A stretch of DNA of 64,000 nt, from positions 372,001 to 436,000 of the forward strand of contig NZ_RKQK01000003.1 in the NCBI RefSeq assembly GCF_003814915.1, given 5' to 3'. Positions 11,477-62,336 of this stretch are shown one piece after another. A model generated the notes under the pieces. It searched no databases. It worked only from the letters and a program-made list of their open reading frames with translations, and was not told the origin of the DNA. The position numbers and the translations under genes were made by a program. Within the stretch, counting starts at the first letter, position 1. Each line of letters starts with the position of its first letter. This DNA comes from Pacificibacter maritimus (GTDB lineage: Bacteria > Pseudomonadota > Alphaproteobacteria > Rhodobacterales > Rhodobacteraceae).

Positions 11477-12460
11477 TTATAATTGACTGCAAAAAACCTG
11501 TGCATCACCAATTTTGCGCGAAGCAGGCCGCTCAATACGGCAGATATTTTGCGCCTTCGGGCAGCGCGTTTCAAACAAGCACCCAATAGGCAGATCAAGC
11601 GGGCTGGGCAAATCACCGTCAAGAATCTGGGGCACCACTTCAACGCGTGGATCAGCGACAGGCACAGCAGAAAGCAAAGCTTGGCTATAGGGGTGGGATG
11701 GCGACTTTACCACGCTCTCAGCGGGCCCATATTCCATCATTCCACCCAGATACATCACCAAAACATCATCCGAAATATGACGGACAATACCAAGGTCATG
11801 CGCCACAAAGATCAGCGTTAGATCCATCTCACGTTGCAATTCGCGCAGCAAATTTACGATCTGCGCCTGAATCGACACATCCAATGCAGACACAGGTTCA
11901 TCGCAGAGCAAAACCCGTGGTTCGGCGGCCAGCGCACGCGCAATTCCGACCCGCTGACATTGACCGCCTGAAAATTCATGCGGATACCTATTGGCGTTTC
12001 TCCTTGGAATGCCAACCCGATCCAGCAGGCTCATGACCCTTTCGCGATGCTCTTGGGCGCTGCGTTTTGGGAAAAAGGCGCGCGATGGTTCTTCGACGAT
12101 TTGAAATACAGTCATGCGCGGATTAAGCGATGCCACGGGATCTTGAAAAATCATCTGAACGGAGCGACGCAAGTTTAAGACATCAGATTTTTTTGCCGTA
12201 TTGACGGTCTTGCCATCAAACTCAATTTGCCCTGCGGCCATCGGCACAAGACCTGCAACGGCACGGATCAGAGTTGATTTTCCGCACCCGCTTTCACCAA
12301 CAACGCCCAAGCATTTGCCCGCGTGAATATCAAAGGACACGCCATTGACGGCATGTACCACATCCGGCTTTTGCCATGGCCACCCTTTAGAATTGGACAT
12401 TTTAAATTCTACGCTTAAATCGCGAACGCGCAGCAATGGAGTGGATGGGTTAGGCATCAT
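11477..12460 (-). CDS. oppF: oligopeptide ABC transporter ATP-binding protein, OppF type
   Basis: The 327-residue ATPase is one of the paired motors of a peptide importer. It has Walker A GESGCGKST, a Q-loop (MIFQDPVASLNPRMTV), signature FSGGQCQRVGIARAL and Walker B CDEPVSALDV. The C-terminal oligopeptide/dipeptide domain carries the cysteine-rich GCLFETRCPKAQNIC stretch thought to bind an iron-sulfur cluster in this family. It is the last gene of the oppABCDF operon and overlaps oppD by four bases. Confidence 0.9.
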   Translation of the reverse strand: MMPNPSTPLLRVRDLSVEFKMSNSKGWPWQKPDVVHAVNGVSFDIHAGKCLGVVGESGCGKSTLIRAVAGLVPMAAGQIEFDGKTVNTAKKSDVLNLRRSVQMIFQDPVASLNPRMTVFQIVEEPSRAFFPKRSAQEHRERVMSLLDRVGIPRRNANRYPHEFSGGQCQRVGIARALAAEPRVLLCDEPVSALDVSIQAQIVNLLRELQREMDLTLIFVAHDLGIVRHISDDVLVMYLGGMMEYGPAESVVKSPSHPYSQALLSAVPVADPRVEVVPQILDGDLPSPLDLPIGCLFETRCPKAQNICRIERPASRKIGDAQVFCSQL

Positions 12461-13422
12461 ACCAACTCCTCTACGGGGCGCCAGCAGGCGCGTTGATGAC
12501 GGATGTCACCGACAAGGGGCGGCAATTCCCTATCGCATTGCTCAGTTCTGTTTTCACAACGCGGCGCAAACGGGCAGCCAGGCGGTGGAACCATTTGATT
12601 TGGCGGCTGCCCTGCAATACTGCGCAAATCCCCCACCGCATCCTGAATGTTTGGGACGGCCCTAAGCAGCCCACGAGTGTATGGGTGTGAAGGTGTTTCA
12701 AACAAATCTAGGGTCCCTGCTTGTTCCATCACACGCCCTGCATAAAGCACCAAGGTCTTTTCACAGGCCCCAGCAACCACGCCCAAATCGTGCGTAATGA
12801 GCAAAACAGACATGTCGCTTTCGCGCTGGATTTCTTTGAGCAATGCCATGATTTGCGCTTGCACGGTCACATCAAGTGCTGTCGTTGGCTCATCCGCGAG
12901 TATCAATTTCGGACTGCACATCAGCGCCATCGCAATAACGATCCTCTGGCGCATTCCACCCGAAAATTCGTGTGGATAGGCCTTTAAGCGGTTCTTTGCA
13001 TCAGGAATACGCACGGCATCCATCGCTTCCAAAACGCGTTTGCGGGCTGCTGCCCCTTTTAGACCCTCATGCTGTTCCAAGCTTTCATTGAGCTGACGTT
13101 CGATGGTCATATAGGGGTTGAGTGACGTCATCGGGTCTTGAAAGATCATCGCGATTTCTTTGGCGCGAATAGAATTCAATTCGTTTTGCTGCATCTCAAG
13201 TAGGTTCTTACCTTGGTAGGTAACAGTGCCAGAGGTACGCGCATTGCCCGCCAAAAGCCCTAAAACCGAGAGGGCGATCTGCGATTTTCCCGAACCGGAT
13301 TCCCCCACCAAAGCAACAGTTTCTCCCGCCCCAATGGAAAAGGATACATCATTGACCGCCTTGACCACCCCATCAGGGGTTTGAAATTCAATCGACAGGT
13401 TTTCAGCTTGAAGCAAAGTCAT
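12457..13422 (-). CDS. oppD: oligopeptide ABC transporter ATP-binding protein, OppD type
   Basis: The 321-residue partner ATPase has Walker A GESGSGKSQ (a glutamine replaces the more common S/T after the Walker lysine-serine), signature FSGGMRQRIVIAMAL and Walker B ADEPTTALDV. A C-terminal cysteine motif (GCPFAPRCENRTEQC) matches OppD/DppD proteins. It overlaps oppC by four bases upstream and oppF by four bases downstream. Confidence 0.9.
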   Translation of the reverse strand: MTLLQAENLSIEFQTPDGVVKAVNDVSFSIGAGETVALVGESGSGKSQIALSVLGLLAGNARTSGTVTYQGKNLLEMQQNELNSIRAKEIAMIFQDPMTSLNPYMTIERQLNESLEQHEGLKGAAARKRVLEAMDAVRIPDAKNRLKAYPHEFSGGMRQRIVIAMALMCSPKLILADEPTTALDVTVQAQIMALLKEIQRESDMSVLLITHDLGVVAGACEKTLVLYAGRVMEQAGTLDLFETPSHPYTRGLLRAVPNIQDAVGDLRSIAGQPPNQMVPPPGCPFAPRCENRTEQCDRELPPLVGDIRHQRACWRPVEELV

Positions 13423-14351
13423 GAGCGCTCCTTTGGATCAAGCGCATCTCGCAGCCCATCCCCGATGTAGTAAAGTGAGATTTGGTTCACCGCAAAGAAG
13501 ACCGCGGGAAAGGCGAGTTGCCACAAAGTGCCATATGTCATGGTCGACGCCCCTTCGGAAATCAGGCCGCCCCAACTGGTTTGTGGTTCTTGGATGCCCA
13601 CACCAAGGAAGGACACCAAGCTTTCGGTCATGATCATATCTGGGATGGTGATAGAGGCGTAGATCACAATGATCCAAAGCATGTTGGGCAACAAATGTTT
13701 GAAAATGATCTTGGTATCAGACAAGCCTAGCATACGCGCTGCTTCGATGAATTCACGGTTTTTCAGCGTCATCACCTGACCACGCGTGATCAAAAGACCC
13801 GCAGTCCAGTTCATGATCACCATCACGATGATCATCTGCTCAACAGAACGACCAAAAAATGCCTGCCAGACCACAAAGAAAATGATGTAAGGAATTGATA
13901 GCGTAATATTGTATGCAGCCATTATCAGCTGATCAATTCGCCCGCCATAATAGCCCGCGATGGCCCCAAAGGTCGCCCCGATGAGCACCGCAGCGATCCC
14001 CGCGATAAAGCCCACCATTAAAGATACACGTGACCCTTGCACAACGCGCGCATAAAGGTCGCGCCCCAGTTCATCGACACCAAACCAATGGCCGTTTTCC
14101 AAGCTAGGACCGCCTTGTTCTTTAACTTGGCCCAGCAAAGACCAGTCAATTTCTTCAATCGAAAACTGTGCCGCAAGGTTGCCAAAGATAGCAAAAAGAA
14201 AAACAAATGCCAAAAACAAAAGCGCAACAACTGCCATACGGTTTTGGAAAAAACGACGCCGCGCATCGGCCCAAAAGGAACGGCTGGACAGCATTTCTTC
14301 TGCTGCGGCCTGCGCGTAGTCTTCGCTGTTCATAGTTCTGCGCGCACTCAT
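13419..14351 (-). CDS. oppC: oligopeptide ABC transporter permease, OppC type
   Basis: The 310-residue permease has an N-terminal OppC leader domain with one membrane span and a GTDELGRD-like segment (WFGVDELGRDLYARVV), then five more spans and the coupling loop EFIEAARMLGLSDTKIIFKHLLPN. It pairs with OppB to form the channel. It overlaps oppB by four bases. Confidence 0.92.
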   Translation of the reverse strand: MSARRTMNSEDYAQAAAEEMLSSRSFWADARRRFFQNRMAVVALLFLAFVFLFAIFGNLAAQFSIEEIDWSLLGQVKEQGGPSLENGHWFGVDELGRDLYARVVQGSRVSLMVGFIAGIAAVLIGATFGAIAGYYGGRIDQLIMAAYNITLSIPYIIFFVVWQAFFGRSVEQMIIVMVIMNWTAGLLITRGQVMTLKNREFIEAARMLGLSDTKIIFKHLLPNMLWIIVIYASITIPDMIMTESLVSFLGVGIQEPQTSWGGLISEGASTMTYGTLWQLAFPAVFFAVNQISLYYIGDGLRDALDPKERS

Positions 14352-15280
14352 TTAAGGCCACTCCGCACTTTGGGATCAATCGCCGCATAGGCAAGATCCA
14401 CAAGAAGATTAAGAACAAAGGTCAGCACGCTGTATAAGATTGCCAGACCCAAAATGACGGAATAGTCACGCGTATATGCCGCATCGATAAACTTTTGACC
14501 GATCCCACCTGTTGAAAAGAATACATCCACGAAGACCGATCCTGTGATCATGTAAACAAAGACGGGGCTCATGTATGAGATCACGGGCAGCAGCGTTGGT
14601 TTCAGCGCATGACGGATCAAGATGGTGCGTTCAGGCAGGCCTTTGGCCCGCGCGGTTCGGATATAGGGGGCCCCCAAAATTTCAAGCAAGGATGAGCGCG
14701 TGATCCGCGCGACATTGGCAAGATAAGACGTGCCCAATGCAACGGCAGGCATGATGATATAGCTCCAGTGGCCACCATTCCAGCCGCCGCCAGGCAACCA
14801 GCCCAACGCAAGCGTAAAGAGCAACACCAATAAAGGTGCCAGCACGAAATTCGGAAAGATCTGCGAGAAAATCGCAAACCCCGTCATAATGTAATCCCAA
14901 AAGCTATTTTGGCGCAGCGCCGCGACAACACCAAGCGGGATGCCAAGAGCCAAGACAAATACAGCGGACCAAAATCCATAAGTCAGCGTCACAGGAAAGC
15001 CCGCCGCGATCAAATCGTTCACCGTGTAGTCGCGCTGCGAAAAACTGGGGCCAAAGTCGAAATGAAAGACAATGTTTTTGATATATGTCCACAGCTGGAT
15101 GTGGAGCGGCTGATCTAGACCATAGCGTTCAAGCACATTGGCCATAATAGCGGGAGGCAAGGGGCGCTCGGATGTAAACGGCCCACCAGGTGCTAGCCGC
15201 ATTAGAAAAAAACATATGATTATGAGCGACAGCAAGGTCGGCACAACAGCAAGGCTGCGTCGCAAAGAGTATTTTAACAT
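14348..15280 (-). CDS. oppB: oligopeptide ABC transporter permease, OppB type
   Basis: The 310-residue permease begins with MLKYSLRRSLAVVPTLLSLI, the usual amphipathic start plus first span of OppB, and has the coupling loop PYIRTARAKGLPERTILIRHALKP. Together with OppC it forms the transmembrane path. It is separated from oppA by 72 nt containing a strong stem-loop. Confidence 0.92.
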   Translation of the reverse strand: MLKYSLRRSLAVVPTLLSLIIICFFLMRLAPGGPFTSERPLPPAIMANVLERYGLDQPLHIQLWTYIKNIVFHFDFGPSFSQRDYTVNDLIAAGFPVTLTYGFWSAVFVLALGIPLGVVAALRQNSFWDYIMTGFAIFSQIFPNFVLAPLLVLLFTLALGWLPGGGWNGGHWSYIIMPAVALGTSYLANVARITRSSLLEILGAPYIRTARAKGLPERTILIRHALKPTLLPVISYMSPVFVYMITGSVFVDVFFSTGGIGQKFIDAAYTRDYSVILGLAILYSVLTFVLNLLVDLAYAAIDPKVRSGLK

Positions 15281-15298
15281 GGGGCACCTAACGCATGT

Positions 15299-15325
15299 CT
15301 TGCCGCCGGATGAACCGGCGGCAAG
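15299..15325. promoter_or_regulatory. intercistronic stem-loop between oppA and oppB
   Basis: CTTGCCGCCGG (15299-15309) pairs perfectly with CCGGCGGCAAG (15315-15325) around a 5-nt loop. Lying between the binding-protein gene and the permease gene, it probably protects the oppA part of the transcript and lowers read-through, so that the binding protein is made in excess. Confidence 0.65.
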
Positions 15326-15352
15326 AGTGGCAGAAGTGAAAGAAGGGGAAAA

Positions 15353-16990
15353 TTATTCAGCGACTTTGTACAAGTCTTTTGAATAGTACTTCTGCATTAC
15401 GTTTTCGATTGGCCAACCTTTGACATCGCTCTTCAAGAGCATATTCGCAGAGTAGTGGTAGATCGGCACAACTGGCATTTCTTGCGAGACGATTTGTTCG
15501 ATCTCGGTGTACAGAGGGCCTGTATCTTTAGATGTTTTGGCTGTCTCAAGCAGTTCATCAACACGCGCATTGTTGAATTTCGCATCATTGTAACCAGAAT
15601 TGGATTGCAACAAATCTAGGAAAGTAGACGCTTCGTTGTAATCCCCACACCAAGCGCCGCGCGCCATGTCGTAGTTTTGATTACCACGGTTTTCCAAAAA
15701 GACTTTCCATTCTTGGTTCTCAAGCGTGACATCGATGCCCAGTTTTTGTTTCCACATTTGCGTGGCTACAATCGCGACCTGCTTGTGGCTTTCAGAGGAA
15801 TTGTACAGGTAATTAAACGCAAGCTTTTCACCATCTTTCCCGTAACCTGCCTCAGCCATCAACTCCATGGCTTTCGCGTCACGCTCTGCTTGGGTCATCT
15901 TTGCATAGTCGATTTCAGGCGCATCGAATCCAGCCGTTGCGGCAGGTGTAAAGTGATACGCTGGGAACTGCCCCCCTTTGAGAACCTGATCCACAATCAC
16001 GTTGCGATCAATCGCCAAAGACAAAGCTTGACGCACACGCACATCTTGGAAAGCCTCAGGCCCGCTAGCAAGGTTGTATGAGAAGTAATAGTTACACAAA
16101 CGCGGCACAGCGATCGCTTCGCCAGGCAACTCTTCGTTCAACGCGGGGTACTGACCCGCTGGGATATCGGTTTTATCCAATTCATCCGCTTTATAACGTG
16201 TCAAAGCTTGGTTCTCGTCCCCGATAACCAAGGCGACCACTTTATCGAGAACTGTGTTGTCATTGTCCCAATACATGGTGTTGCGCTCACGTACGGACCG
16301 TTCTTTTACGACATGTTCGGTTAAGACATAGGCACCGTTGCCCACGAAGTTTTCAGGGCGTGTCCATTCATCACCATGGGCATCGATCACCCATTTTGGC
16401 GATGGGAATGTTGTTGAATGTGACACCATTTCTGCGAAATACGGCAATGGCTTGGACAGGGTGACTTCCAATGTAAAGTCGTCAATGGCTTTGACGCCAA
16501 GCGTGTCAGCATCCGCTTCGCCCGCAATGATTTCCGCTGCGTTTTCCAGCGACATCAGTTCCATATACCATGCGTATGGCGATGCGGTTTCTGGGCTCAC
16601 CGCGCGTTTCCATGCGTAAACGAAATCGCCTGCGGTAACCGCTTTGCCATCAGACCATTTGGCCGTATCGCGCAGGTGGAAAGTGTAAACCAAATTGTCA
16701 TCAGATACATCGTGATGTGTCGCCACACCCGGCACATTCGCGCCATCTGGACCTTGGTTGTACAGACCTTCAAACAGATCGCGTACGATGCCAGATCCGT
16801 CGCTATCTTCTACGATCTGTGGATCGAAACTCGTGGTCTCGTCCAGCAAACTATATGTATAGGTTTGCGTATCCGCCAGTTTGGTGCCCTCTGCAACCGT
16901 CGCAGCATAAGACGCGGTTGCCAGAAAAGTCGTGCCTGCGAGAACACCTGCAAGTGCGGCTTGTGAAATATTTTTATTTAGATTGACCAT
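15353..16990 (-). CDS. oppA: oligopeptide-binding periplasmic protein, OppA type
   Basis: The 545-residue family-5 solute-binding protein has a signal peptide (about 29 residues ending ATASYA). Characteristic stretches are SLDETTSFDPQIVEDSDG-like N-terminal lobe sequence, YTFHLRDTAKWSDGKAVTAGDFVYAWKRAV and FQDVRVRQALSLAIDRNVIV. Length and the YAWKR motif place it with OppA/MppA rather than DppA. It is the first gene of its operon, and its promoter carries the box at 17041-17071 that is shared with dppA. Confidence 0.9.
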   Translation of the reverse strand: MVNLNKNISQAALAGVLAGTTFLATASYAATVAEGTKLADTQTYTYSLLDETTSFDPQIVEDSDGSGIVRDLFEGLYNQGPDGANVPGVATHHDVSDDNLVYTFHLRDTAKWSDGKAVTAGDFVYAWKRAVSPETASPYAWYMELMSLENAAEIIAGEADADTLGVKAIDDFTLEVTLSKPLPYFAEMVSHSTTFPSPKWVIDAHGDEWTRPENFVGNGAYVLTEHVVKERSVRERNTMYWDNDNTVLDKVVALVIGDENQALTRYKADELDKTDIPAGQYPALNEELPGEAIAVPRLCNYYFSYNLASGPEAFQDVRVRQALSLAIDRNVIVDQVLKGGQFPAYHFTPAATAGFDAPEIDYAKMTQAERDAKAMELMAEAGYGKDGEKLAFNYLYNSSESHKQVAIVATQMWKQKLGIDVTLENQEWKVFLENRGNQNYDMARGAWCGDYNEASTFLDLLQSNSGYNDAKFNNARVDELLETAKTSKDTGPLYTEIEQIVSQEMPVVPIYHYSANMLLKSDVKGWPIENVMQKYYSKDLYKVAE

Positions 16991-17102: not shown

Positions 17103-18026
17103 TCAGGTTTTTTCGCCATATTTTGCCACAACTTCACTCCATAGCGCCTTTAATTTAGGCTTTTGGTTTTGCCGTGAGCGATAAAGACGGATTTCCAAAG
17201 GCGCTATAAAACTTTCATCACCAGCATGCACCAATGTGTTTTGCTCAATCGCGTCCGCACAGACTTTAGTTGGCAACCACCCAAGACCGAAGCCTTCTTG
17301 GATCAAGGCCATCACGGAATTGGACAAGGCGTTTTGACTCACAAGCAAAGTGGATGCTGTTCCGCTATGAGACGCCAGAATTTCATCGACAACAGGTCGC
17401 AACACCGAGGCTGATCCATAGGAAATCAAAGGTACCCGTGACTTTCCTCCATTGGGCAGGCGAAATAGAGGCGCGCCGTTTTCATCAGGTTTAGAGACAG
17501 GCAGCAAAGACTCTTTCGCGATCGTCACATAGTCGAACTGCCCCTTTGCGATGGAAGACAAAAATCCCATAGAAGGGTGCCAATAGCACAACATCAGATC
17601 ACAATTGCCTTGCTGCATTTTACCAACGAACTTGCCTGCAGGCCAAGACACAGAGTCAAGCTCAACAGTCAAAAGTCCACGTTCGACAAAAGGCTCGATC
17701 AGACTACCGTTGTAACTGGTATACAGTGATTGGCTGGCCGCAATACGCAGCACGTTTTCATCTTCGACTTCGATCAAACGGCACTGTTCAAGCGCATCCT
17801 CCAATGACCGCAGCAAGGTTTCTGAGCGTTCTAAAAACAGTTCCCCCGCTGGCGTCAAACTCAGCGGAAGTGTATCGCGATTGATAAGGCGCGCCCCCAC
17901 AAAAGCTTCAAGCGCCCTAATGCGGCGTGAAAATGCAGGTTGGCTCACATAGCGCAGCTCTGCGGCACGCGAAAAATTCTGCGTCGCAGCCAAGGCTATA
18001 AAGTCTTTCAGCCAATTGATCTCCAA
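17103..18026 (-). CDS. LysR-family transcriptional regulator
   Basis: The 307-residue regulator has the N-terminal LysR helix-turn-helix (FIALAATQNFSRAAELRYVSQ, residues about 9-29, then SRRIRALE) and a periplasmic-binding-like effector domain. It lies 10 nt after dppF in the same direction and just before the oppA promoter, so it probably ends the dpp operon transcript. Since both flanking peptide operons carry the same promoter box, it likely controls both. The inducer is unknown; a peptide-derived amino acid is a reasonable guess. Confidence 0.88.
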   Translation of the reverse strand: MEINWLKDFIALAATQNFSRAAELRYVSQPAFSRRIRALEAFVGARLINRDTLPLSLTPAGELFLERSETLLRSLEDALEQCRLIEVEDENVLRIAASQSLYTSYNGSLIEPFVERGLLTVELDSVSWPAGKFVGKMQQGNCDLMLCYWHPSMGFLSSIAKGQFDYVTIAKESLLPVSKPDENGAPLFRLPNGGKSRVPLISYGSASVLRPVVDEILASHSGTASTLLVSQNALSNSVMALIQEGFGLGWLPTKVCADAIEQNTLVHAGDESFIAPLEIRLYRSRQNQKPKLKALWSEVVAKYGEKT

Positions 18027-18036
18027 AGCGTTTGCC

Positions 18037-19080
18037 CTATACCCAGTTCAACGCATCAACGCGTTCTTCTTCGACAGCATGACAGGCCACAACGGATCCG
18101 TCATCTTTTTGCAAAGGCATCGGTTTTTCACTGGCGCAGCGCGCGTCCGACAAAGGACAACGTGAACGGAACGGACACCCTGATGGTAAGTTGATCGGCG
18201 TCGGGATTTCCCCCTTGAGCCGAATATGGTTCGACCGATCGTCTTTCAGCTGCGGCACCGCCGACAGCAAGGCTTTGGTATAAGGGTGTTTTGGATTCGA
18301 AAACAAGGTTTGCGTGTCGGCAACTTCACAGATTGATCCCAGATACAGCACGATCACTTTGGTCCCAAAGTGTTCAACCACACTTAGGTCATGGGTGATA
18401 AACAGATAGGTCAGACCATGTGCTTCTTGCATTTCCAGCATCAGATTTAAAACCTGTGCTTGAATGGAAACATCCAAAGCTGAAATGGGTTCATCTGCGA
18501 CGATAAATTCAGGGTCCACCGTCAAAGCGCGTGCGATGGCGATCCTTTGGCGTTGCCCGCCTGACAATTCATGGGCAAAGCGCGCCCCCCAAGCGGGGTC
18601 AATCCCAACGGATTTCATCACAGCCGCGGCTTTGTCTTGCAGCGCACCTTTGCTCATGCTTGGATTATGATAGCGGAGTGGTTCGGCCAAGGTTTGCCCG
18701 ATGGTCATCCGTGGGTTCAGCGACGCATATGGGTTTTGAAAAATCATCTGGATTTTCTTGCGCAGGGGCAGCAAATCTTTGCCACGCAGCCCATCAATAC
18801 GCTCACCGTCATAGTGAATTTCGCCACCACTAGGTGCGATCAATCCCGCAACCATACGTGCAACCGTGGATTTGCCACAGCCACTTTCGCCAACAACACA
18901 AATTGCGTCGCCCCGATCTACGTCAAACGAGATATTGTTTACGGCGTGGACAGCACGCGTTTCGCGCGTCAATTTTCCACTCGAGAACTTCAAGCTTTCG
19001 AGAAAACCTTGATCCAAATTAAAACGCTTCTCAAGCCCCTTAACGCGCAGCAAAGGGCCGTTTTCTTTGTCTAAGCTCAT
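18037..19080 (-). CDS. dppF: dipeptide/oligopeptide ABC transporter ATP-binding protein, DppF type
   Basis: The 347-residue ATPase has Walker A GESGCGKST, a Q-loop MIFQNPYASLNPRMTI, signature [15 protein letters not shown], Walker B ADEPISALDV and the C-terminal cysteine motif GCPFRSRCPLSDARC. A short insertion after residue 20 (FLESLKFSSGKLTRET) is common in DppF-type proteins. It overlaps dppD by four bases and is followed after 10 nt by lysR. Confidence 0.9.
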   Translation of the reverse strand: MSLDKENGPLLRVKGLEKRFNLDQGFLESLKFSSGKLTRETRAVHAVNNISFDVDRGDAICVVGESGCGKSTVARMVAGLIAPSGGEIHYDGERIDGLRGKDLLPLRKKIQMIFQNPYASLNPRMTIGQTLAEPLRYHNPSMSKGALQDKAAAVMKSVGIDPAWGARFAHELSGGQRQRIAIARALTVDPEFIVADEPISALDVSIQAQVLNLMLEMQEAHGLTYLFITHDLSVVEHFGTKVIVLYLGSICEVADTQTLFSNPKHPYTKALLSAVPQLKDDRSNHIRLKGEIPTPINLPSGCPFRSRCPLSDARCASEKPMPLQKDDGSVVACHAVEEERVDALNWV

Positions 19081-20069
19081 TGCGCTGCCTCCGAAGCCAG
19101 TTCTTTTTGCAGCCGATGTACCTCATGGCACGCGACAAAGCTTTCTCCCGATTGGCTGATATCAGGGACCTGAGATTTACAGGTTTCAGTGGCATGGTCG
19201 CAGCGCGGATGAAACGGGCAGCCTGACGGCATATCCGACAGGGTCGGCATCACGCCTGGGATTTGTTTTAACCGTTGGCCAGGTTGCGTTTGTTGCGGCA
19301 AGGCGCTGATCAAGCCTTGAGTATATGGATGCTGCGGGTCGTTAATAATCGAACGGGTTGGACCGTTTTCGATGATCCGCCCTGCATACATCACCATCGT
19401 GCGCTCAGTCACCTGAGAGACGACCCCGAGGTCGTGAGTAATCAAGATCAACCCAACTTGGTTGGACTGACACATTTCCAGCAGCAGTTCCATGATATCG
19501 GCCTGAATAGTCACATCAAGCGCTGTCGTCGGTTCATCTGCAATGATCAGTTTGGGATCAAGCAAAAGCGCCATAGCGATAATGATGCGCTGACGCATGC
19601 CACCTGAAAGCTCATGCGGGTATTGCTCAAACCGTTCTACTGGTGAAGGAATGTAGACTTCTTTCAGCTTCACCAATGCGATTTGACGCGCTTCTTCAAA
19701 TGACAGCTTTCGATGCGCACGCAGCGTTTCAACCATTTGCTGACCGATCGTCAAAACGGGATTGAGGGTCACCATCGGATCTTGAAAGATCATCGCCATA
19801 CGGTTGCCGCGCATATCCCGCACTTGCTTTTTCGACATCTGGGTGACGTCTTCACCCTCAAACAGGATTTGTCCACCGTCGATAAAACCCGGTTGGGACA
19901 AGAGATTCATCAACGCAAATCCAGTGATAGATTTACCCGCGCCGGATTCTCCGACGATTCCAAGCCGCTCGCCACGGGCAAGATCAAATGAAATTCCGTT
20001 GAGCGCTGTCAGAGCCCCAGTGCGGTTCGAAAATTTGACCGTAAGATCACGTACAGATAACAAAGACAT
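19077..20069 (-). CDS. dppD: dipeptide/oligopeptide ABC transporter ATP-binding protein, DppD type
   Basis: The 330-residue ATPase has Walker A GESGAGKSI, signature LSGGMRQRIIIAMALL, Walker B ADEPTTALDV and a C-terminal cysteine motif (GCPFHPRCDHATETC). It lies 3 nt after the dppC frame. Both ATPases of this operon look intact although the dppC gene upstream is disrupted. Confidence 0.9.
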   Translation of the reverse strand: MSLLSVRDLTVKFSNRTGALTALNGISFDLARGERLGIVGESGAGKSITGFALMNLLSQPGFIDGGQILFEGEDVTQMSKKQVRDMRGNRMAMIFQDPMVTLNPVLTIGQQMVETLRAHRKLSFEEARQIALVKLKEVYIPSPVERFEQYPHELSGGMRQRIIIAMALLLDPKLIIADEPTTALDVTIQADIMELLLEMCQSNQVGLILITHDLGVVSQVTERTMVMYAGRIIENGPTRSIINDPQHPYTQGLISALPQQTQPGQRLKQIPGVMPTLSDMPSGCPFHPRCDHATETCKSQVPDISQSGESFVACHEVHRLQKELASEAAQ

Positions 20070-20072
20070 GGG

Positions 20073-21070
20073 TTAACCTTTGTATAGTTTCGGGTTCAGA
20101 ACGTCACGCATCCAGTCCCCCAGCAAATTGATAACCAGCACCAGCACCACCAGAACCACACCCGGAATGGCGGTAATCCACCAACTGCCCGAAAAGATAT
20201 AGTCAAACCCCGAAGAAATCAGTGAACCAAGCGAGGGTTGGTTGGGCGGCATGCCCAAACCCAAAAAGCTAAGAGACGCTTCGGAAATGATTGCATTGGC
20301 CACTTGCACTGTCGAAATCACAAAAATCGGTGACAAGGAATTCGGTAAAATGTGGCGCACCATGATCCGTATAGGGCCGAAGCCCATGACCCTAGCTGCA
20401 TCGACATATTCTTTCTTTTTTTCGGCCAAAACCGTGGCGCGCACGGTGCGGGCATATTGCGGCCATTCGGCCACGCCGATCACCCCAACCAAGAACAACA
20501 CAGCATAGCGGCTAAAGACTTCAGAGCCAAAGACAGCCTGCGTGATCGCCAGAAATATGATCGCAACCATCAAGGTTGAGAATGACAATTGAATATCAGC
20601 AAGGCGCATCAAAAGACTGTCAGTTGAATATCAGCAAGGCGCATCAAAAGACTGTCAGTACGCCCACCGACATAGCCTGAAATCAGCCCAATCGAAATCC
20701 CAAGGAATGCCTGCAAAGCCACGGCACAAATCCCGATGATAATTGAAAGACGCGTGCCGTAGAGGATAGTCGAAAGCAAATCGCGCCCTTGATCATCCGT
20801 GCCCAACATAAACTCAGGCAAGGCGCCATCAATCCAAATGGGTGGATATTCACTGTTCATAATGTCGATCTGAGCAGGATCATAGGGGTCATAAGGCGCA
20901 ATCCACGGAGCAAAAAATGCCGCGATGGTGATCGCTAAGAAAACCACCATCGACACAATTGCCACGGGGTTCCTGCGAAAAGAATAACCGATGTTGCTGT
21001 CACGCAGACGTGCCCAGCGCGACGGCGTTGATTTGAGCACAAAGCTCGGAACAGTAGCTGGATCACTCAT
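20073..21070 (-). pseudogene. dppC: dppC permease gene split by a 35-bp tandem duplication
   Basis: Two adjacent frames together make one DppC. The first (21070 to 20609, 153 aa) holds the N-terminal leader, a GTDDQGRDLL segment and the early spans, then goes out of frame as ADIQLTVF-stop. The second (20609/20612 to 20073) starts MRLADIQLSFSTLMV and holds the rest, including the coupling loop EYVDAARVMGFGPIRIMVRHILPN. The break is an exact duplication of 35 bp (20589-20623 and 20624-20658). Removing one copy restores a 320-residue frame, normal for DppC. At the junction the stop and a new ATG overlap as TGATG, so reinitiation making two half-permeases is conceivable, though no good ribosome binding site is seen. 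A sequencing or assembly error is also possible. Confidence 0.85.
20589..20658. repeat. perfect 35-bp tandem direct repeat inside dppC
   Basis: The unit at 20589-20623 (beginning TTGAATATCAGCAAGG, ending GACTGTCAG) is repeated without change at 20624-20658. Thirty-five is not a multiple of three, so the repeat shifts the frame. Identical copies suggest a recent slippage event that could revert. Confidence 0.97.
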
Positions 21071-22047
21071 GCGCCCATCCTCGCGAGGTTAATCGTTGGG
21101 TTAACAAGACCGTAAATCAAATCGACGATGGTGTTTGTCACCACGAAGATAAAACCAACAACGATCAGATAGGCCACGATCAGCGGTGTATCCACGCGGT
21201 TGACCGCTTCTAGAAACATCGCCCCCATGCCAGGCCAACTGAAGACGGTTTCGGTCAAAATTGTATAGGCAACCATCGTCCCGATCTGTACCCCGCCCAC
21301 AGTGATGACGGGCAGCAGGGTATTTTTCAAACCATGCACAAAGTATATCCGCCACGGCGCGATCCCTTTGGCCTGAGCATAGCGTACATATTCACTTTGC
21401 AGAACATCCATCATTTCAGCGCGGATTAATCTAATAAACATCGGAAGCATAATGGATGACAGCGCGATAGACGGCATAATTATGTGCAGCCAACCGTCTT
21501 TGGTAGCAAAATTGGTTTCCCACGAGCCAAGCACATGCACAATTTCACCCCGCCCAAAGGATGGCATCCACCCCAGCTCAACAGAGAAAAAGAAAATCAT
21601 CAAAATGGCAGTCAAGAAAACGGGAATAGACAGACCGACGATGGACAAAGATAGAATGATGCGCGTGATCGCCCCGTTGGGTCGGATCGCGGTATAAACG
21701 CCCAGCGGGATGGACAGCCCGATAATGAGTATCGTTGCACCGAAAACAAGTTCAAGCGTGGCTGGCAATTTCTTCAAGATCACATCAAGCGCGGGTTCTT
21801 TGAAGAAATAGGACGTTCCCAGGTCTCCCTGCAAAGCATTGCCCAAAAAGCGCATATATTGCACGAAAAACGGATCATTGAGACCCAGTTCATCCCGCAG
21901 TTGCTGACGGACCTCTTCTGAGACGGATTGCCCCACAAGTTCTCGTAGCGGATCACCCAAGTTACCTTGGATCGCAAAAGCGATCAACGAGATGACCAGC
22001 ATAACTGCAATGGCCTGAAAAATACGTTTTACAAGATATGCAAACAT
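21067..22047 (-). CDS. dppB: dipeptide/oligopeptide ABC transporter permease, DppB type
   Basis: The 326-residue permease starts MFAYLVKRIFQAIAVMLVIS, the usual DppB opening, at the ATG at 22047 preceded by AGGGGGG. An upstream start would add ten residues without a binding site. It carries the DppB domain hallmarks DPLRELVGQSVSEEVRQQL and DLGTSYFFKEPALDVILKKLP, and the coupling loop SEYVRYAQAKGIAPWRIYFVH. It overlaps the dppC start by four bases. Confidence 0.92.
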   Translation of the reverse strand: MFAYLVKRIFQAIAVMLVISLIAFAIQGNLGDPLRELVGQSVSEEVRQQLRDELGLNDPFFVQYMRFLGNALQGDLGTSYFFKEPALDVILKKLPATLELVFGATILIIGLSIPLGVYTAIRPNGAITRIILSLSIVGLSIPVFLTAILMIFFFSVELGWMPSFGRGEIVHVLGSWETNFATKDGWLHIIMPSIALSSIMLPMFIRLIRAEMMDVLQSEYVRYAQAKGIAPWRIYFVHGLKNTLLPVITVGGVQIGTMVAYTILTETVFSWPGMGAMFLEAVNRVDTPLIVAYLIVVGFIFVVTNTIVDLIYGLVNPTINLARMGA

Positions 22048-22110
22048 CGTCGCCCCCCTGAACGAGCCCTGCCCCACGCAAACGCGTTGACGTAACTATA
22101 GAGAAAATTA

Positions 22111-22136
22111 GCGGGTGCGCATGATGGCGCACCCGC
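22111..22136. promoter_or_regulatory. intercistronic stem-loop between dppA and dppB
   Basis: GCGGGTGCGC (22111-22120) pairs perfectly with GCGCACCCGC (22127-22136), loop of six. On the transcribed strand the stem is followed by TAATTTT, so some transcripts may end here while others continue into dppB. The position matches the stem-loops found after oppA, smoE and dctP. Confidence 0.7.
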
Positions 22137-22173
22137 CTTGGGAATATCTAAGAAACTATAACTCTTAGCTACG

Positions 22174-23733
22174 TTATTCGGAAACCTTTAGGTCGCCAAA
22201 GTATGGGAAATTAAGCGCATTCACGATTTCTCCAGCGTTCATGCCATCTTTTGCACCCCATGCAAGGTTCTGCCAATGCAGCGGCACAAAGGCTGCTTCA
22301 TCAAACAAGATTTGCTCAAGCTGCTGTAGATACTCAGTACGCTTGGCGATATCAGTTTCAGCGTTCGCCATATCCATCAACTTGTCTGCTTCTGGATTAC
22401 AGTAACCGCCAGAGTTGTACTGACCGTTGCCTGTTTCTTCGTCACGACACGCCGTCAAGAATTGATGGAAGTTCGCAGAGTCTTCGGTATCGGCATGCCA
22501 ACCGATCATCATCATATCTGCCGCACGTTCATCAAACGCAGGCCAGTATTGCGCTTTGGGTAAGGTCTGAAGATCGACTGTAATCCCGATTTGCGACAAC
22601 ATTGATGCCACAGCTTGCGCGATTTTATCATCGTTCACGTAGCGGTTATTTGGCGCCATCATAGAGATCGAGAAACCGTCTGCGTATCCCGCTTCTGCCA
22701 TCAATTCTTTGGCTTTTTCAATGTCAAAACGTGGTTCAAGGCTTTCGATGTGACCTAGGTAACCCATTGGGGATGCCTGTGCGCCAACAGTACCGAAACC
22801 GCGCATAATACGATCAACGATGCCAGTGTTGTTCACTGCATAATCAACGGCCATGCGCACTTTTGGATCTTTAAACGCCTCGACGCGATCTTGGTTCATT
22901 TGGAACGTAATGATACGCGTGCCCGGCATAGTAATTAAATTTACGCCATCGGCTTTTTCAACACGGGCCAGATCGGTTGGTGGTACAGGCGCGATGAAAT
23001 CAACATCACCAGATAGCAATGCTGCAACGCGTGTTGGGTCTTCTTTGATCGGTGTCAGGGTGATCTCATCCACATTGCCTTGTGAAGCCGTATCCCAGTA
23101 GTCATCGAAACGGTCAAAGACAACTTTCACGCCTTGCTCACGCTCGGAGACAACGAAGGGACCTGTGCCTGAAATGTTGCGTGATGCAAAGCTGTCGCCG
23201 TGCTTTACGATTTCGGATTTATTTTTGCCATCATCGGTTTCGCCGCTGTAAAACGCGCTGTCCATTGCGAATAAGTATGTCGCAGTGTGCAAAACCAATG
23301 GGAATGGTTCAGATGTTTTCAGATCGATTGTGTAGTCATCAACGACTTCGATGTCTGTGAATGGCGCAAAAATACCCTTGAAGTCTGGGCTTTCTTTTGC
23401 GCGATCAAATGTCCAATCCATGTCCTTGGCCGTGAAGGCATTACCAGAGTGGAATGTGACATCCTTGCGCAGGTTAAAGCGCATGGTTGTTGCATCAATT
23501 TGTTCCCAGCTTTCTGCCAAACGGCTTTCAAACTGCAAATCTTGTGTCCAGCGTACAAGCGGATCAAACACCATGTGGTTCAGTTGTAGCGTGCCACCAG
23601 ACAATTGCTCATACGGATCAAGTGAAACGGGGTCGGCGTCATATGCAACTTTCACGGAGATGTCAGCAAATGCTGTCCCCGCAAGGGCTGCACTCAACGC
23701 GAGGCCCGCGACGCAATCTTTTAATTTCAACAT
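22174..23733 (-). CDS. dppA: dipeptide/peptide-binding periplasmic protein, DppA type
   Basis: The 519-residue family-5 binding protein has a signal peptide (about 23 residues, ending AGTAFA). Typical stretches are DADPVSLDPYEQLSGG, MRFNLRKDVTFHSGNAFTAKDMDWTFDRA and PKVRMAVDYAVNNTGIV. The C-terminal LTACRDEETGNGQYNSGGYCNPEAD contains two cysteines likely to form a disulphide. It is the first gene of the dpp operon, with the shared promoter box 58 nt upstream. Confidence 0.9.
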   Translation of the reverse strand: MLKLKDCVAGLALSAALAGTAFADISVKVAYDADPVSLDPYEQLSGGTLQLNHMVFDPLVRWTQDLQFESRLAESWEQIDATTMRFNLRKDVTFHSGNAFTAKDMDWTFDRAKESPDFKGIFAPFTDIEVVDDYTIDLKTSEPFPLVLHTATYLFAMDSAFYSGETDDGKNKSEIVKHGDSFASRNISGTGPFVVSEREQGVKVVFDRFDDYWDTASQGNVDEITLTPIKEDPTRVAALLSGDVDFIAPVPPTDLARVEKADGVNLITMPGTRIITFQMNQDRVEAFKDPKVRMAVDYAVNNTGIVDRIMRGFGTVGAQASPMGYLGHIESLEPRFDIEKAKELMAEAGYADGFSISMMAPNNRYVNDDKIAQAVASMLSQIGITVDLQTLPKAQYWPAFDERAADMMMIGWHADTEDSANFHQFLTACRDEETGNGQYNSGGYCNPEADKLMDMANAETDIAKRTEYLQQLEQILFDEAAFVPLHWQNLAWGAKDGMNAGEIVNALNFPYFGDLKVSE

Positions 23734-24105: not shown

Positions 24106-25614
24106 CTAGCGGTCTAAGTAGTCTTGCAAGGTCGCTGCAACACCACGATCCCAAATGGTTTTGAGCGATGCCGTAAACAGCGCTGAAAACTGGTCATTCT
24201 CGGCAAGATCACCATAAATCTGGCGCATATCGATCCAAACTTTAGGATCGCTTTTCGCGGCCAAGGCTGTGGTTTGCAGTTTAGCCCAAAACGGATCATT
24301 GGCTTCGATCTGGCTGCCGTCTTCTCTTGTGCCAGCACACATCCGCGCCCACATCGCTTGCACCAAAACGAGCCCATCAATTGGCGTGCCTGCACGCAAC
24401 CCGTCCCGAATTGAGGGCACAATAAATCCTGGCTGGCGTGATGAGCCATCAAAGGCAACGCGCCGCGTTGTGTCGATAATTTTGGGGTTAGAAAAACGCG
24501 ACTGGATCAGTTCAACATAGGTCTCGGGAGCCATGTTTGGCACCGCTTCGACATGCGGCGCGATTTCTGTGCTGGCAACCTTTGTGAAAAACGGACCGAT
24601 CAGGTCGTGTTCCATACAGCCTGCAATCGTCTCGACTGAAAGAATTTCACCAGGAACAGCAATGACTTGGTGACCACCATTCAGGATGCGAATTTTCATA
24701 GCCTCATAGCTGTGAACATCATCCGTAAAGGTCGCACCAGAGCAATCCCAATCGGGACGTCCTGCGCAAAACGCATCCTCAATGACCCATTGGCGAAAGT
24801 TTTCGTGCGTGACAGGCGCTTGATCATCGATCCCGAAACCCTGCACCAAAGCCAATTCGTTTGGCCCCGTCGCAGGGACAATGCAATCCACCATAGAGTT
24901 GGGGAAAGTGCATTCCGTATTGATCCAATCAGCGAGCGCAGGATCTGTTAATCGCGCAAGCGATACGACCGTTTGCCGCATGATATCGCCATTTCCCAAA
25001 AGATTATCGCAACACATGCAGGTGAAAGGCCCCCTCCCCTCATCGCGGCGAACACGCAGCGCGGCAACAATAGCACCAAACGCAGTCTTGGGCGTCGCAG
25101 GGTTTTCGACGTCGTGTAGAATATCAGGGTGCGCCCCATCAAACCCCTTAGTTGCAGGATCAATGAAATAACCGCCCTCGGTGACCGTCGTTGCGACAAT
25201 GCGGATTTCGGGCTTCGTCATTTGCGCGATGAGGGCTGCATTGCCTTCTTCAATCGGCAGATAATCGATCATGGACCCCACGACCTCAGCCGAACTGCCC
25301 GAGGGATCCAACTCAATCAATGTCGTCAGACAATCTTGTGCCAACAATTTGTCGCGCATCGCCGCATCATACTGGCGCACCCCAGCCCCTATGATGGCCC
25401 AATCAAGGGCTAAGCCGTCTTGCATCAAGCGGTGCAAATACCATGCTTGATGCCCACGATGGAAATTGCCTAGGCCGATATGCACAATGCCAGGCGTCAA
25501 AGCGTTGCGATCATACTGCGGGCGCGACACCTCAGCGGGCAGTTGGGTCAAATGCGCGTTGCTGAGTGTGAGGGGGGGGTGTTTTGTTACATACGCGTTC
25601 ATAAGCTTATCCAT
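24106..25614 (-). CDS. mtlK: mannitol 2-dehydrogenase (long-chain polyol dehydrogenase)
   Basis: This enzyme oxidises D-mannitol (and often D-arabitol) to the ketose with NAD+. The N-terminal Rossmann region contains GIVHIGLGNFHRGHQAWYLH, and the C-terminal catalytic domain has KIRILNGGHQVIAVPGEIL with the catalytic-type lysine and following N/H residues. From the ATG at 25614 the protein has 502 residues, near the family norm of about 490. The ATG at 25602 (MNAYV) is an equally possible start. It follows smoK by 111 nt and completes a polyol uptake and oxidation operon like that of Rhodobacter. Confidence 0.9.
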   Translation of the reverse strand: MDKLMNAYVTKHPPLTLSNAHLTQLPAEVSRPQYDRNALTPGIVHIGLGNFHRGHQAWYLHRLMQDGLALDWAIIGAGVRQYDAAMRDKLLAQDCLTTLIELDPSGSSAEVVGSMIDYLPIEEGNAALIAQMTKPEIRIVATTVTEGGYFIDPATKGFDGAHPDILHDVENPATPKTAFGAIVAALRVRRDEGRGPFTCMCCDNLLGNGDIMRQTVVSLARLTDPALADWINTECTFPNSMVDCIVPATGPNELALVQGFGIDDQAPVTHENFRQWVIEDAFCAGRPDWDCSGATFTDDVHSYEAMKIRILNGGHQVIAVPGEILSVETIAGCMEHDLIGPFFTKVASTEIAPHVEAVPNMAPETYVELIQSRFSNPKIIDTTRRVAFDGSSRQPGFIVPSIRDGLRAGTPIDGLVLVQAMWARMCAGTREDGSQIEANDPFWAKLQTTALAAKSDPKVWIDMRQIYGDLAENDQFSALFTASLKTIWDRGVAATLQDYLDR

Positions 25615-25725
25615 TGTTCGCCGTCCACATGTTAGAAGTCCACCGCACTTTGCGCGGGTGATGCGGGTCTCAAGAGGCGGCGGACCAAACCTGTGCACGC
25701 CACCCCAAAATTTGTGCAGATTAGA

Positions 25726-58547: not shown

Positions 58548-60527
58548 TTAGGTTGGAAAATGACACGCGGCCGACTGCGGTCCGGCTTTCGTCAACCGCG
58601 GATCATCGATAGCGCACTTGGCCTGCGCACGCGGACAGCGCCCCGCGAAACTACACCCCTGCGGGGGCTTGAGCGGGTTTGGAAAGTCCACAGCTTTGCG
58701 TGGTTCCTCACCTTGACCAAGCTTGCCCAAAAGCAATTCGGTGTAAGGATGCTTTGGTGCGTGAAACAGGTCTTTACCCCGCCCAGCTTCGACAATGCGG
58801 CCAAAGTACATCACCGCCACACGATCCGACATCGCACGAATGACGTTAAGGTCATGAGAAATCATCACAAAAGTCAGTTGAAATTCTGCCCGCAAATCTT
58901 TGAGCAAATTCAAAATCTGCGCTTGAACGGAGACATCCAAGGCCGATGTTGGTTCATCACAAATCAAAATTTCAGGACGCAAAATCAACGCGGAAGCAAT
59001 CGCAACACGTTGACGTTGCCCGCCTGACATTTGCGCAGGGAAATTCGCGGCCGTGCGCGCAGGCAGGCCACAAAGATCCATCATGCGTTTGACGTCGACC
59101 CTGCGCTCATCGGGCGTACCGATCTCATGAATATCAAGTGACAAGCGAATGGTTTCTTCGACCGTGCGACGCGGATTGAGCGATGAGTACGGGTCTTGAA
59201 AGACAGGTTGGACCAAACGGGCACGGCGTTTGCGATCAACCTTGGAAATCGGCGTGCCGTTGATCAACACCTCACCAGAGGCGGGTGCCTCAACGCCCAG
59301 CAAGGCCCTCGCCAGAGTGGACTTGCCAGACCCGCTTTCACCAACAAGACCAAGCACCTCGCCCTTGCGCACACCCAAATCAATACCGCGCAGCGCATGA
59401 ACTTGCCCCTTGGTTCCAAACAACCCCTTGCGGACCTCATAGGTTTGCACAACACCTTTCACCTCAAGGGCAGGCATGGCCTGTGTGTCGTCAGAGACCT
59501 CTGCTTTGACAGCGGCAGGCGGCACAGGGTCGCGGTAGCGATTGTTGATATCTTCCATACTCAACGTACAGCGGATTGTCTGGCGGTCTGCCTCAGTTGA
59601 CACAGGGACTGGCTGTGCGCAGCCATCATGCGCCAGCGAACAGCGCGCACGAAACTGACACCCATCATCTGAGTTGATCAAGGATGGAACAACGCCGGGC
59701 AAAAACCCTAAACGCGTGTTTGCATCCGCATCAGAATTCGGCACACAGCTGAGCAAAGCACGTGTATAGGGGTGCGCAGGTTGGCCCAAAACTTGGGCGC
59801 GTGTCCCAGATTCAACCACCTGCCCTGCGTAGACCACACAGATGCGATCGGCCACATCGCGCACCACGTCAAAATCATGGGTCACCAAGATGATCGCCAA
59901 GTTCAACCGTTTTTGCAGGTCTTTGAGCAGGGCAAGAATTTGTGCTGAAATCGTGCGGTCCAACGCCGTTGTCGGTTCATCCGCAATGAGCAAATCTGGC
60001 TCTGTCATAAGCGCCATCGCAATCATGACGCGCTGACGCAATCCGCCAGACAATTGATGCGGATATTGTGACAGGCGTGGTTCTGGATCGGCAATACCAC
60101 AGGCATCCAACAACTCGATTGCACGCGCCGTGGCTTGTGCACGTGACAAAGATGGCTTGTGATGCATCAGCCCCTCGACCATTTGTTCGCCGATGGACCA
60201 CGCAGGGTTAAGCGCCGTCATGGGTTCTTGAAAAATCATCGCGATACGATCACCGCGCAGCTTTTCAATCGCATGCCTCCCGCCCGCTGTCAGGTCGTGA
60301 TCGCCAAACCGCAAATGCGTGGCTTTGGGTGTGGCTGCGGGGGGCAAAAGCCCCATCAAAGCCAGAGAAGTCATGGATTTTCCAGATCCCGATTCCCCAA
60401 CGATACAGAGTGTTTCGCCCGCATTCACGTTCAAGCTGACATCGCGCACGGCAGCCAGTGGACCAAGCGGAGTGTGAATTGTCACGTTGAGATCGCGCAC
60501 ATCAAGTGTTGAAGATGAGATATTCAT
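58548..60527 (-). CDS. peptide/nickel-type ABC transporter, fused double ATPase (DppD-DppF)
   Basis: The 659-residue protein joins two complete ATP-binding proteins in one chain. The first half has GESGSGKSM, LSGGLRQRVMIAMAL and ADEPTTALDR plus a C-terminal GCQFRARCSLAHDGC motif. After a linker near 330-350 the second half has [34 protein letters not shown] and GCSFAGRCPRAQAKC. It serves the permeases upstream, whose gene overlaps it by four bases. Fused ATPases of this kind occur in importers of dipeptides, glutathione and opine-like compounds. Confidence 0.9.
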   Translation of the reverse strand: MNISSSTLDVRDLNVTIHTPLGPLAAVRDVSLNVNAGETLCIVGESGSGKSMTSLALMGLLPPAATPKATHLRFGDHDLTAGGRHAIEKLRGDRIAMIFQEPMTALNPAWSIGEQMVEGLMHHKPSLSRAQATARAIELLDACGIADPEPRLSQYPHQLSGGLRQRVMIAMALMTEPDLLIADEPTTALDRTISAQILALLKDLQKRLNLAIILVTHDFDVVRDVADRICVVYAGQVVESGTRAQVLGQPAHPYTRALLSCVPNSDADANTRLGFLPGVVPSLINSDDGCQFRARCSLAHDGCAQPVPVSTEADRQTIRCTLSMEDINNRYRDPVPPAAVKAEVSDDTQAMPALEVKGVVQTYEVRKGLFGTKGQVHALRGIDLGVRKGEVLGLVGESGSGKSTLARALLGVEAPASGEVLINGTPISKVDRKRRARLVQPVFQDPYSSLNPRRTVEETIRLSLDIHEIGTPDERRVDVKRMMDLCGLPARTAANFPAQMSGGQRQRVAIASALILRPEILICDEPTSALDVSVQAQILNLLKDLRAEFQLTFVMISHDLNVIRAMSDRVAVMYFGRIVEAGRGKDLFHAPKHPYTELLLGKLGQGEEPRKAVDFPNPLKPPQGCSFAGRCPRAQAKCAIDDPRLTKAGPQSAACHFPT

Positions 60528-61408
60528 GAACGCCCCTTTGGAACAATAAGGTCACGCAGCCCGTCCCCCACGAGGTTGACAGCCAGAACCAGCAACATAA
60601 TGGCAAGGCCAGCAATGGTGATGAGCCAAGGGTTGATCACCAAAAAGGCGCGCCCTTCGGACATCATTAGCCCCCAAGACGGCTCAGGTGCTTGAATACC
60701 CAAACCAAGGAAAGACAAAGCAGCTGCGGCTAAAATGCACTGCGCCATTTCGAATGTGAAAATAATGACGATATGGTTCAGAACATTGGGAAAAATTTCG
60801 CTGCGTAAGATACGCATTTCGCTGGCGCCCATGGCACGCGCGCGGATCACGTAATCTTGCGATGCGACCTGACGACTAGCTGTGCGCAAGACCACGGCAA
60901 AACGATCCCAATGCGTCACTGCAAGAACCACCACGACCACAAACACGCCTGAGCCCGCTATCTGCAAAATGGCCAAAGCCAACAAAAGGGATGGCAGCGC
61001 AAGGCGGATCGCGATGATGAAAGACACCGCACGATTTGCATAGCCTCCCATGACTCCGGCGACGACGCCAAGTGTTGTGCCAATCACTGTGGCCAGTGCA
61101 GCAGCCCCTAGCCCGACGATCAAAGAAATGCGCGTGCCGTAGATCAGACGCGACAGATAATCACGCCCGTACCCATCGGTACCAAAGGGATATTCCCATG
61201 TACCGCCCGCCCAGACGGGGGGCTTTAGTCGCGCCATAAGGCTTTGGGTATAGGGGTCATGCGGCGCGATAAATGGCGCGAACACAGCGATAAAGATAAA
61301 GCCTGTAAGCAGCACAAGCCCGATGCAAAACCCAGTACGCCCAGCCAGACGCGCAGGCAAAAGACGCGGAATTTTGCCGCGTGAAGAAGATGTGGAACTC
61401 AAGGTCAT
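60524..61408 (-). CDS. peptide-type ABC transporter permease, DppC type
   Basis: The 294-residue permease has an N-terminal leader span, the GTDGYGRDYLSRLIYGTRIS motif and the coupling loop DYVIRARAMGASEMRILRSEIFPN. It is intact, in contrast to the dppC at 20-21 kb. It overlaps the neighbouring genes by four bases on each side. Confidence 0.92.
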   Translation of the reverse strand: MTLSSTSSSRGKIPRLLPARLAGRTGFCIGLVLLTGFIFIAVFAPFIAPHDPYTQSLMARLKPPVWAGGTWEYPFGTDGYGRDYLSRLIYGTRISLIVGLGAAALATVIGTTLGVVAGVMGGYANRAVSFIIAIRLALPSLLLALAILQIAGSGVFVVVVVLAVTHWDRFAVVLRTASRQVASQDYVIRARAMGASEMRILRSEIFPNVLNHIVIIFTFEMAQCILAAAALSFLGLGIQAPEPSWGLMMSEGRAFLVINPWLITIAGLAIMLLVLAVNLVGDGLRDLIVPKGRS

Positions 61409-62325
61409 TGTTCGCTCGTCAATCTTGGGTCAAGGGCAGCATTCAATAGGTCAGAGACCACATTGAGCAGCACGAAAATAATGGCAACAATCAAGACAAC
61501 AGCCTGCACAACGGGGTAATCCGAGCGCTGGATAGCGCTCCATGCCAGCAGGCCGATACCATTGAGCGAAAAGACACTTTCGACGACAATCGACCCGCCC
61601 AGCAAGAACCCGAACTGAACAGTCGCCACAGACACCACGGGCAAAATCGCGTTGCGCAGGGCATGTTTGAACAAGACTGTGCGCTCTGATAATCCTTTGG
61701 CGCGTGCCGTACGGATGTAATCTGACGATAAGACATCGATCATACCCGCACGCGAAAGCCGCAAAAAGACAGGAAAAACAAACCACGCCAGCGTCAAGGA
61801 TGGCATCACATAACTTGCCGCCGATTGTGTGCCTGAGATTGGCAAAATACGGAAGGTGACGCCGAACAGTAAGATCAACAACAATCCCACCCAGTAAGAT
61901 GGCATCGCTTGGCCCAAAACGGACAGGCCAAGACAAGATCGATCGAACCAACCATCCGGTTTCATCGCGCAATAAACGCCCGCAGGAATAGAAATCAGCA
62001 GGCCAAGCAACAGCGAGGCAACTGACAAGGTGGCGGTGACTGGCAGGCGTTCGAGAATAAGTGTCAGAACGTCCTCTTGCGAGAAATAGGATTGACCTAA
62101 GTCGCCGTGCAAAACACGCCCTGCCCAACTGAGATATTGCTGAACAAAGCTTTGATCGAGACCATAGACTTCGCGCAATCGTGCTGTGTCTTCGGCTGAG
62201 GCGTCGAGACCGCCCATAGCAACCGCAAGATCCCCTGTCGATTGCACCAATAAAAAGGCGATGATTGAAACCGCAACGCAGACCGCTGCGGCTTCAATAA
62301 GTTTTCTGACAAAATACGCGCCCAC
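61405..62325 (-). CDS. peptide-type ABC transporter permease, DppB type
   Basis: The 306-residue permease begins MGAYFVRKLIEAAAVCVAVS and has the DppB segments DLGQSYFSQEDVLTLILERLP and the coupling loop SDYIRTARAKGLSERTVLFKHAL. It follows the binding-protein gene by 11 nt, so here there is no intercistronic stem-loop, unlike the other binding-protein operons in the window. Confidence 0.92.
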   Translation of the reverse strand: MGAYFVRKLIEAAAVCVAVSIIAFLLVQSTGDLAVAMGGLDASAEDTARLREVYGLDQSFVQQYLSWAGRVLHGDLGQSYFSQEDVLTLILERLPVTATLSVASLLLGLLISIPAGVYCAMKPDGWFDRSCLGLSVLGQAMPSYWVGLLLILLFGVTFRILPISGTQSAASYVMPSLTLAWFVFPVFLRLSRAGMIDVLSSDYIRTARAKGLSERTVLFKHALRNAILPVVSVATVQFGFLLGGSIVVESVFSLNGIGLLAWSAIQRSDYPVVQAVVLIVAIIFVLLNVVSDLLNAALDPRLTSEQ

Positions 62326-62336
62326 TGGTTCCGTCC

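Follow-up and report, generated by a model that had tools for sequence, protein, structure and literature searches.

DppC, as represented by PDB entry 8z1v (chain B, which we take to be the E. coli protein) and related entries, belongs to the same permease family as the gene described here. The intact homologue of Amylibacter marinus (locus L016) matches it over residues 29-317 at 2.2e-60, whereas the gene considered here is split and its intact relatives score only 226.6 (L016) and 226.0 bits (locus L046) against the cut-off of 483 bits of the NCBIfam DppC equivalog NF008160. Short tandem duplications within open reading frames have been described for pneumococcal capsule genes, where they inactivate the gene and can slip back. 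One account (PMC4022640) reports a capsule gene carrying a short tandem duplication in a single invasive isolate, refers to Waite et al. (2001, 2003) for acapsular strains that arose in culture via such a duplication, and gives reversion at no more than ~1e-5 for its own insertions, which are nine bases long at most. Translationally coupled genes are known to have stop/start overlaps of the ATGA and TGATG kinds; in PMC6728339, 13 of the 14 overlapping pairs tested were strictly coupled, and removal of the Shine-Dalgarno sequence substantially lowered reinitiation in four of five E. coli pairs. The locus analysed here resembles both systems in part. Like the capsule genes, it has an open reading frame disrupted by a short tandem duplication, although in another gene and another phylum, and while phase variation is reported for the capsule genes, a single assembly, known from its sequence alone, represents the present case. 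As in the coupled pairs, a one-base TGATG overlap occurs within an operon, but it has arisen inside one gene by mutation, it is devoid of Shine-Dalgarno pairing and the gene is split in none of the 94 other loci.

The window, i.e. the whole 64-kb stretch of DNA that was analysed, forms part of contig 3 of a marine Rhodobacteraceae-type genome assembled in 8 contigs (3.08 Mb, 99.94% complete). The operon of interest is encoded on the minus strand in the order binding protein, DppB, split DppC-type gene, DppD and DppF, followed by a LysR gene, with the following features:

22174-23733, minus strand: family-5 solute-binding protein, intact, 519 aa (Pfam and alignment to L016)
21067-22047, minus strand: DppB-type permease, intact, 326 aa from the ATG at 22047; its stop and the dppC-like start overlap (ATGA)
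20609-21070, minus strand: N-terminal piece (N-piece) of the split permease, 153 aa including four C-terminal residues from the shifted frame, with an OppC_N domain
20624-20658, no strand: second copy of the 35-bp unit, exact tandem (35/35)
20589-20623, no strand: first copy of the 35-bp unit, exact tandem (35/35)
20607-20611, minus strand: TGATG, a one-base overlap between the stop of the N-piece and a native ATG within the gene, without Shine-Dalgarno pairing
20579-20588, no strand: flank resembling the 10-base end of the unit (7/10 identical), likely the imperfect homology used by slippage
20073-20609, minus strand: C-terminal piece (C-piece) of the split permease, BPD_transp_1 domain, 178 aa from the ATG at 20609 or 179 from the TTG at 20612
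19077-20069, minus strand: DppD-type ATPase, intact, 330 aa (Pfam and alignment to L016)
18037-19080, minus strand: DppF-type ATPase, intact, 347 aa (Pfam and alignment to L016)
17103-18026, minus strand: downstream LysR-type regulator, gapless over 304 (L016) and 302 (L018) of 307 residues

The two 35-mers, numbered in plus-strand order, lie head to tail, and the match between them extends one base further, to position 20659. Tandem Repeats Finder reports the same array (20589-20659, period 35, 2.0 copies, 100% match, no indels), so that the exact duplication described in the initial annotation is both directly visible and independently recovered. It is the sole exact tandem repeat in the window in a scan of periods 10 to 300 from which units composed of shorter repeats of up to nine bases were excluded, and its occurrence by chance is essentially impossible. 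The duplication lies inside the coding sequence of the minus-strand gene and, since 35 bp is no whole number of codons, shifts the reading frame. After native Q149 the N-piece gains L-T-V-F, the L coinciding with the native residue, and then terminates at TGA (20611-20609). The last base of this stop is the first base of an ATG (20609-20607), the codon for native M143 in the other frame; this bears out the TGATG junction reported initially. The C-piece is counted from this ATG as 178 residues, its mechanical start being the TTG at 20612. Combined, the two pieces cover all native residues, with residues 143-149 present twice. The whole split region (20073-21070) measures 998 bases, and removal of one copy leaves 963, that is 320 codons and a stop. 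This agrees with the 320-residue permease that was predicted for the restored gene and with the intact gene of A. marinus (L016:5578-6537), which also has 320 codons.

Both pieces retain recognisable domains, the N-piece matching PF12911 (OppC_N) at 53.0 bits (Pfam cut-off 23.9) and the C-piece PF00528 (BPD_transp_1) at 91.6 bits (cut-off 26.4), and by its domain content the split gene is an OppC/DppC-type ABC permease. Against NF008160 the pieces score 120 and 109.8 bits and, with the intact relatives also falling far below the cut-off, the name dppC used in the initial annotation is a little too specific, while the split of a DppC-type permease stands. The remaining genes of the operon are intact as first proposed, aligning without gaps to A. 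marinus over 519/519 (binding protein), 326/326 (DppB), 330/330 (DppD), 347/347 (DppF) and 304/307 (LysR) residues. ATGA overlaps are native to this operon and occur at both the dppB/dppC and dppD/dppF boundaries. The fructuronate-reductase-like gene located upstream (24106-25698) has no match in the three loci compared and is thus no common component of the operon in those loci. Two further complete operons of the same class are encoded in the window (11477-16990 and 58548-63842), each comprising a binding protein, two permeases and ATPase domains according to Pfam. Matches to OppC_N occur at eight places in the genome, the split gene included, and six of the seven others score above the curated cut-off, two of the seven being part of these complete operons. 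The presence of other Opp/Dpp-type operons suggests that loss of the split importer could be tolerated. By Pfam, three separate importer operons of this type (11477-16990, 18037-23733 and 58548-63842) are clustered within ~52 kb, and another OppC_N match is located just outside the window (contig 3:437605-437751).

The ancestral state was examined by mapping the two pieces to 95 loci, comprising the window's own, 80 named records (the best 80 of 532 relatives, i.e. the nearest homologues) and 14 from further genomes. As the L002 sequence equals that of L046 over the 2.5 kb compared, the 94 other rows represent 93 distinct loci, of which 13 rows are more distant homologues with C-piece identities of 26-56%. 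The genome collections used hold one genome per species, and in a DNA-level search 46 of the 61 genomes gave no match. The extra 35 bp were found in 0/94 other loci and a split gene likewise in 0/94, while length differences among them are multiples of three throughout. The frame was scored as open by script in 93 of the 94; the exception, L010, was flagged since its alignment ran across its own stop, and its frame is open for 328 codons. A single copy is thus supported as the ancestral state by this comparison, as the initial annotation had assumed. Among the columns conserved in at least 95% of the 80 named relatives, the window keeps 51 of 52 in the N-piece and all 116 in the C-piece, and the sole miss, at position 151, is the residue made by the frameshift itself. 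The lack of decay in the pieces and the identity of the copies indicate that the event is very recent, in line with the earlier proposal, or else that it is an assembly error and not biological; identical copies in an undamaged gene are equally expected from an assembly slip.

The locus is probably best explained as a fresh and ordinary tandem-duplication frameshift, produced by recent replication slippage, that would disable the importer and from which passive reversion is possible. During replication the nascent strand would have misaligned by 35 bases, generating the 35-bp duplication, with the imperfect 10-bp repeat at both break points probably aiding the slip. Exact homology at the junction amounts to a single base. 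The 7/10 match at the ancestral break points fits replication slippage; identity of this degree at an offset of 35 is attained by 0.5% of window positions, a figure that serves as a guide as the ten-base comparison was picked after seeing the sequence. With 35 not divisible by three, translation would leave the native frame and meet a stop four codons on, in the stretch separating transmembrane helices 2 and 3. This would most likely cause loss or near loss of one importer, while the paralogous Opp/Dpp-type operons remain. Function may not be wholly lost, given that TGATG can support reinitiation and that the dppD start is itself weak (-2.1 kcal/mol). The allele may return to one copy passively by the same slippage, and reversion of an exact 35-bp tandem might be expected to be no less frequent than that of the shorter insertions in PMC4022640. 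Reversibility of the two-copy allele is on this analogy plausible and a passive on/off allele possible, which does not amount to an evolved switch. The event is an ordinary one, with no sign of a new mechanism, and carries little biological weight beyond providing a clean case of an in-gene tandem duplication caught before decay. It also serves as a reminder that one assembly cannot separate mutation, a mixed population and an assembly slip.

It is unlikely, though it deserves consideration, that the genome carries one copy and that the second was introduced during assembly or sequencing, by the joining of contig ends overlapping by ~36 bases or by a mis-resolved cluster of reads. The exactness of the copies, the otherwise undecayed state of a conserved gene and the assembly in 8 contigs would all suit such an artefact. 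Common short reads are, however, longer than the 71-bp array, which single reads should therefore span, and the 7/10 match at the break points is more in keeping with a biological slip than with a contig end at a random place. Exact tandem repeats are also rare, with 10 identified in 1,797,165 bases (the window, 941,165 bases in the 80 named loci and a further 792,000 from this genome), distributed as one in the window, two in contig 3 (392 kb), three in contig 1 (400 kb) and four in the named loci (941 kb). The 35-mer has the longest period among the 10, the next being 18. The genome sample consisted of the window and 40 stretches from contigs 1 and 3, or 856 kb of 3.08 Mb (28%), and no second exact tandem of similar period was found in it, units of up to nine bases being excluded; exact repeats with periods of at least 10 in the 792 kb outside the window occur in L111 (10), L116 (11), L135 (15 and 18) and L142 (17). 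No systematic fault of this kind is thus visible in the sample, while one isolated fault remains compatible with it.

Synthesis of the permease in two pieces, as raised in the initial annotation, is very unlikely. Ribosomes would here stop at the TGA and restart at the ATG, and the half-permeases TM1-2 and TM3-6 would form a working DppC-type subunit. In favour of this, the predicted structure of the intact A. marinus protein (30 sequences, mean pLDDT 80.7, pTM 0.75) has helices at 98-133, 137-151 and 154-176, the break at 143-151 falling within the middle one. The EAA coupling segment near residues 209-216 is cytoplasmic in this permease family, and tracing the helices from it suggests that helix 137-151, which links TM2 to TM3, faces the cytoplasm, such that neither piece would have to invert in the membrane. 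The pieces also encode every native residue between them, the operon has its own ATGA overlaps, and TGATG is a known coupling geometry (PMC6728339).

The restart site itself argues against reinitiation. The best duplex with the anti-Shine-Dalgarno sequence is +0.7 kcal/mol for the restart ATG (22 bases before ATG) and +0.6 for the TTG, as compared to -7.1 for the binding protein, -9.3 for DppB, -6.1 for the DppC-type gene, -2.1 for DppD and -8.8 for DppF. The dppD value indicates that starts in this operon can do without strong pairing, and a Shine-Dalgarno motif at the restart is common but not obligatory in coupled pairs; its removal nevertheless lowered reinitiation in most of the E. coli pairs cited above. 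The overlap is also cheaply obtained. TGATG is present in each copy of the unit and hence stood out of frame in the gene before the duplication. When frameshifting duplications of 10-60 bp were simulated in eight intact relatives, a stop/ATG overlap (TGATG or ATGA) resulted in 30517 of 226057 (13%), and among 35-bp duplications in 1789 of 6941 (26%). For this simulation each frame was extended back to the preceding stop, 90 bases at its beginning and about 60 at its end were omitted, and the denominator excludes 10073 duplications (10-60 bp) after which no stop was encountered. TGATG was accordingly rejected as a special feature and selection need not be invoked. With no Shine-Dalgarno pairing at the ATG and the overlap common in simulation, and with no relative among the 94 other loci having a split gene, the suggestion that the overlapping stop and start permit two-piece synthesis found no support, and loss or near loss of the importer would be expected. 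Were it true, a split membrane subunit could arise in one mutational step. The fullest form of the idea, a one-step natural conversion of a single-chain ABC permease to a working two-chain permease, split between TM2 and TM3, reinitiating at TGATG and reversible by slippage, is the most improbable proposition considered here. Programmed -1 frameshifting was rejected under the codon rules for -1 slippage, as relative to the N-piece the C-piece does occupy the -1 frame, but in GTC TTT TGA a one-base backward slip would place TTT on CTT, and no slippery heptamer was seen on reading the sequence before the N-piece stop; transcriptional slippage was likewise rejected, the longest aid seen on reading being a run of four T.

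That the duplication is a maintained contingency switch toggling the importer on and off is extremely unlikely, as contingency loci usually retain a repeat whereas the extra copy occurs in 0/94 other loci, the species is represented by a single strain, and it is in our opinion not obvious why an importer of this kind should switch at random. Recurrence of the duplication in relatives, which would mark a phase-variable locus, was thus not observed in these loci. The precedent for such a switch is the association of in-gene tandem duplications with capsule phase variation in pneumococci (PMC4022640). Neither two-piece synthesis nor a maintained switch has direct support at this locus, and both are retained at low probability beside a recent slippage event as the preferred reading.

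When the match threshold was relaxed to 80% and periods of 20-100 were scanned, with only the top position kept for each period and stretch, 856 kb yielded 19 rows, among them the duplication site. The notion that the genome is prone to such events was rejected, as inspection of the open frames around ten places, using open reading frame lists only, revealed no other conserved gene interrupted by a repeat; L136 and L143 were judged by reading the sequence only. On contig 1 (~153900; L131:13886 onward), 21 exact copies of a 9-bp unit, hidden by the unit filter, lie in frame within a 906-codon minus-strand open frame and are possibly length-variable. At contig 1 ~301100-301500 (L139:1122-1500) a unit of 93-99 bp recurs in approximately four diverged direct copies, apparently mostly between open frames and each with a terminator-like GC-rich stretch. 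A 20-bp tandem (19/20) on contig 1 (L140:19711-19750) falls outside open frames of at least 60 codons except at its edge, and the exact 17-bp tandem of contig 1 (L142:16535-16569) lies within possibly non-coding open frames, 92 and 89 codons long.
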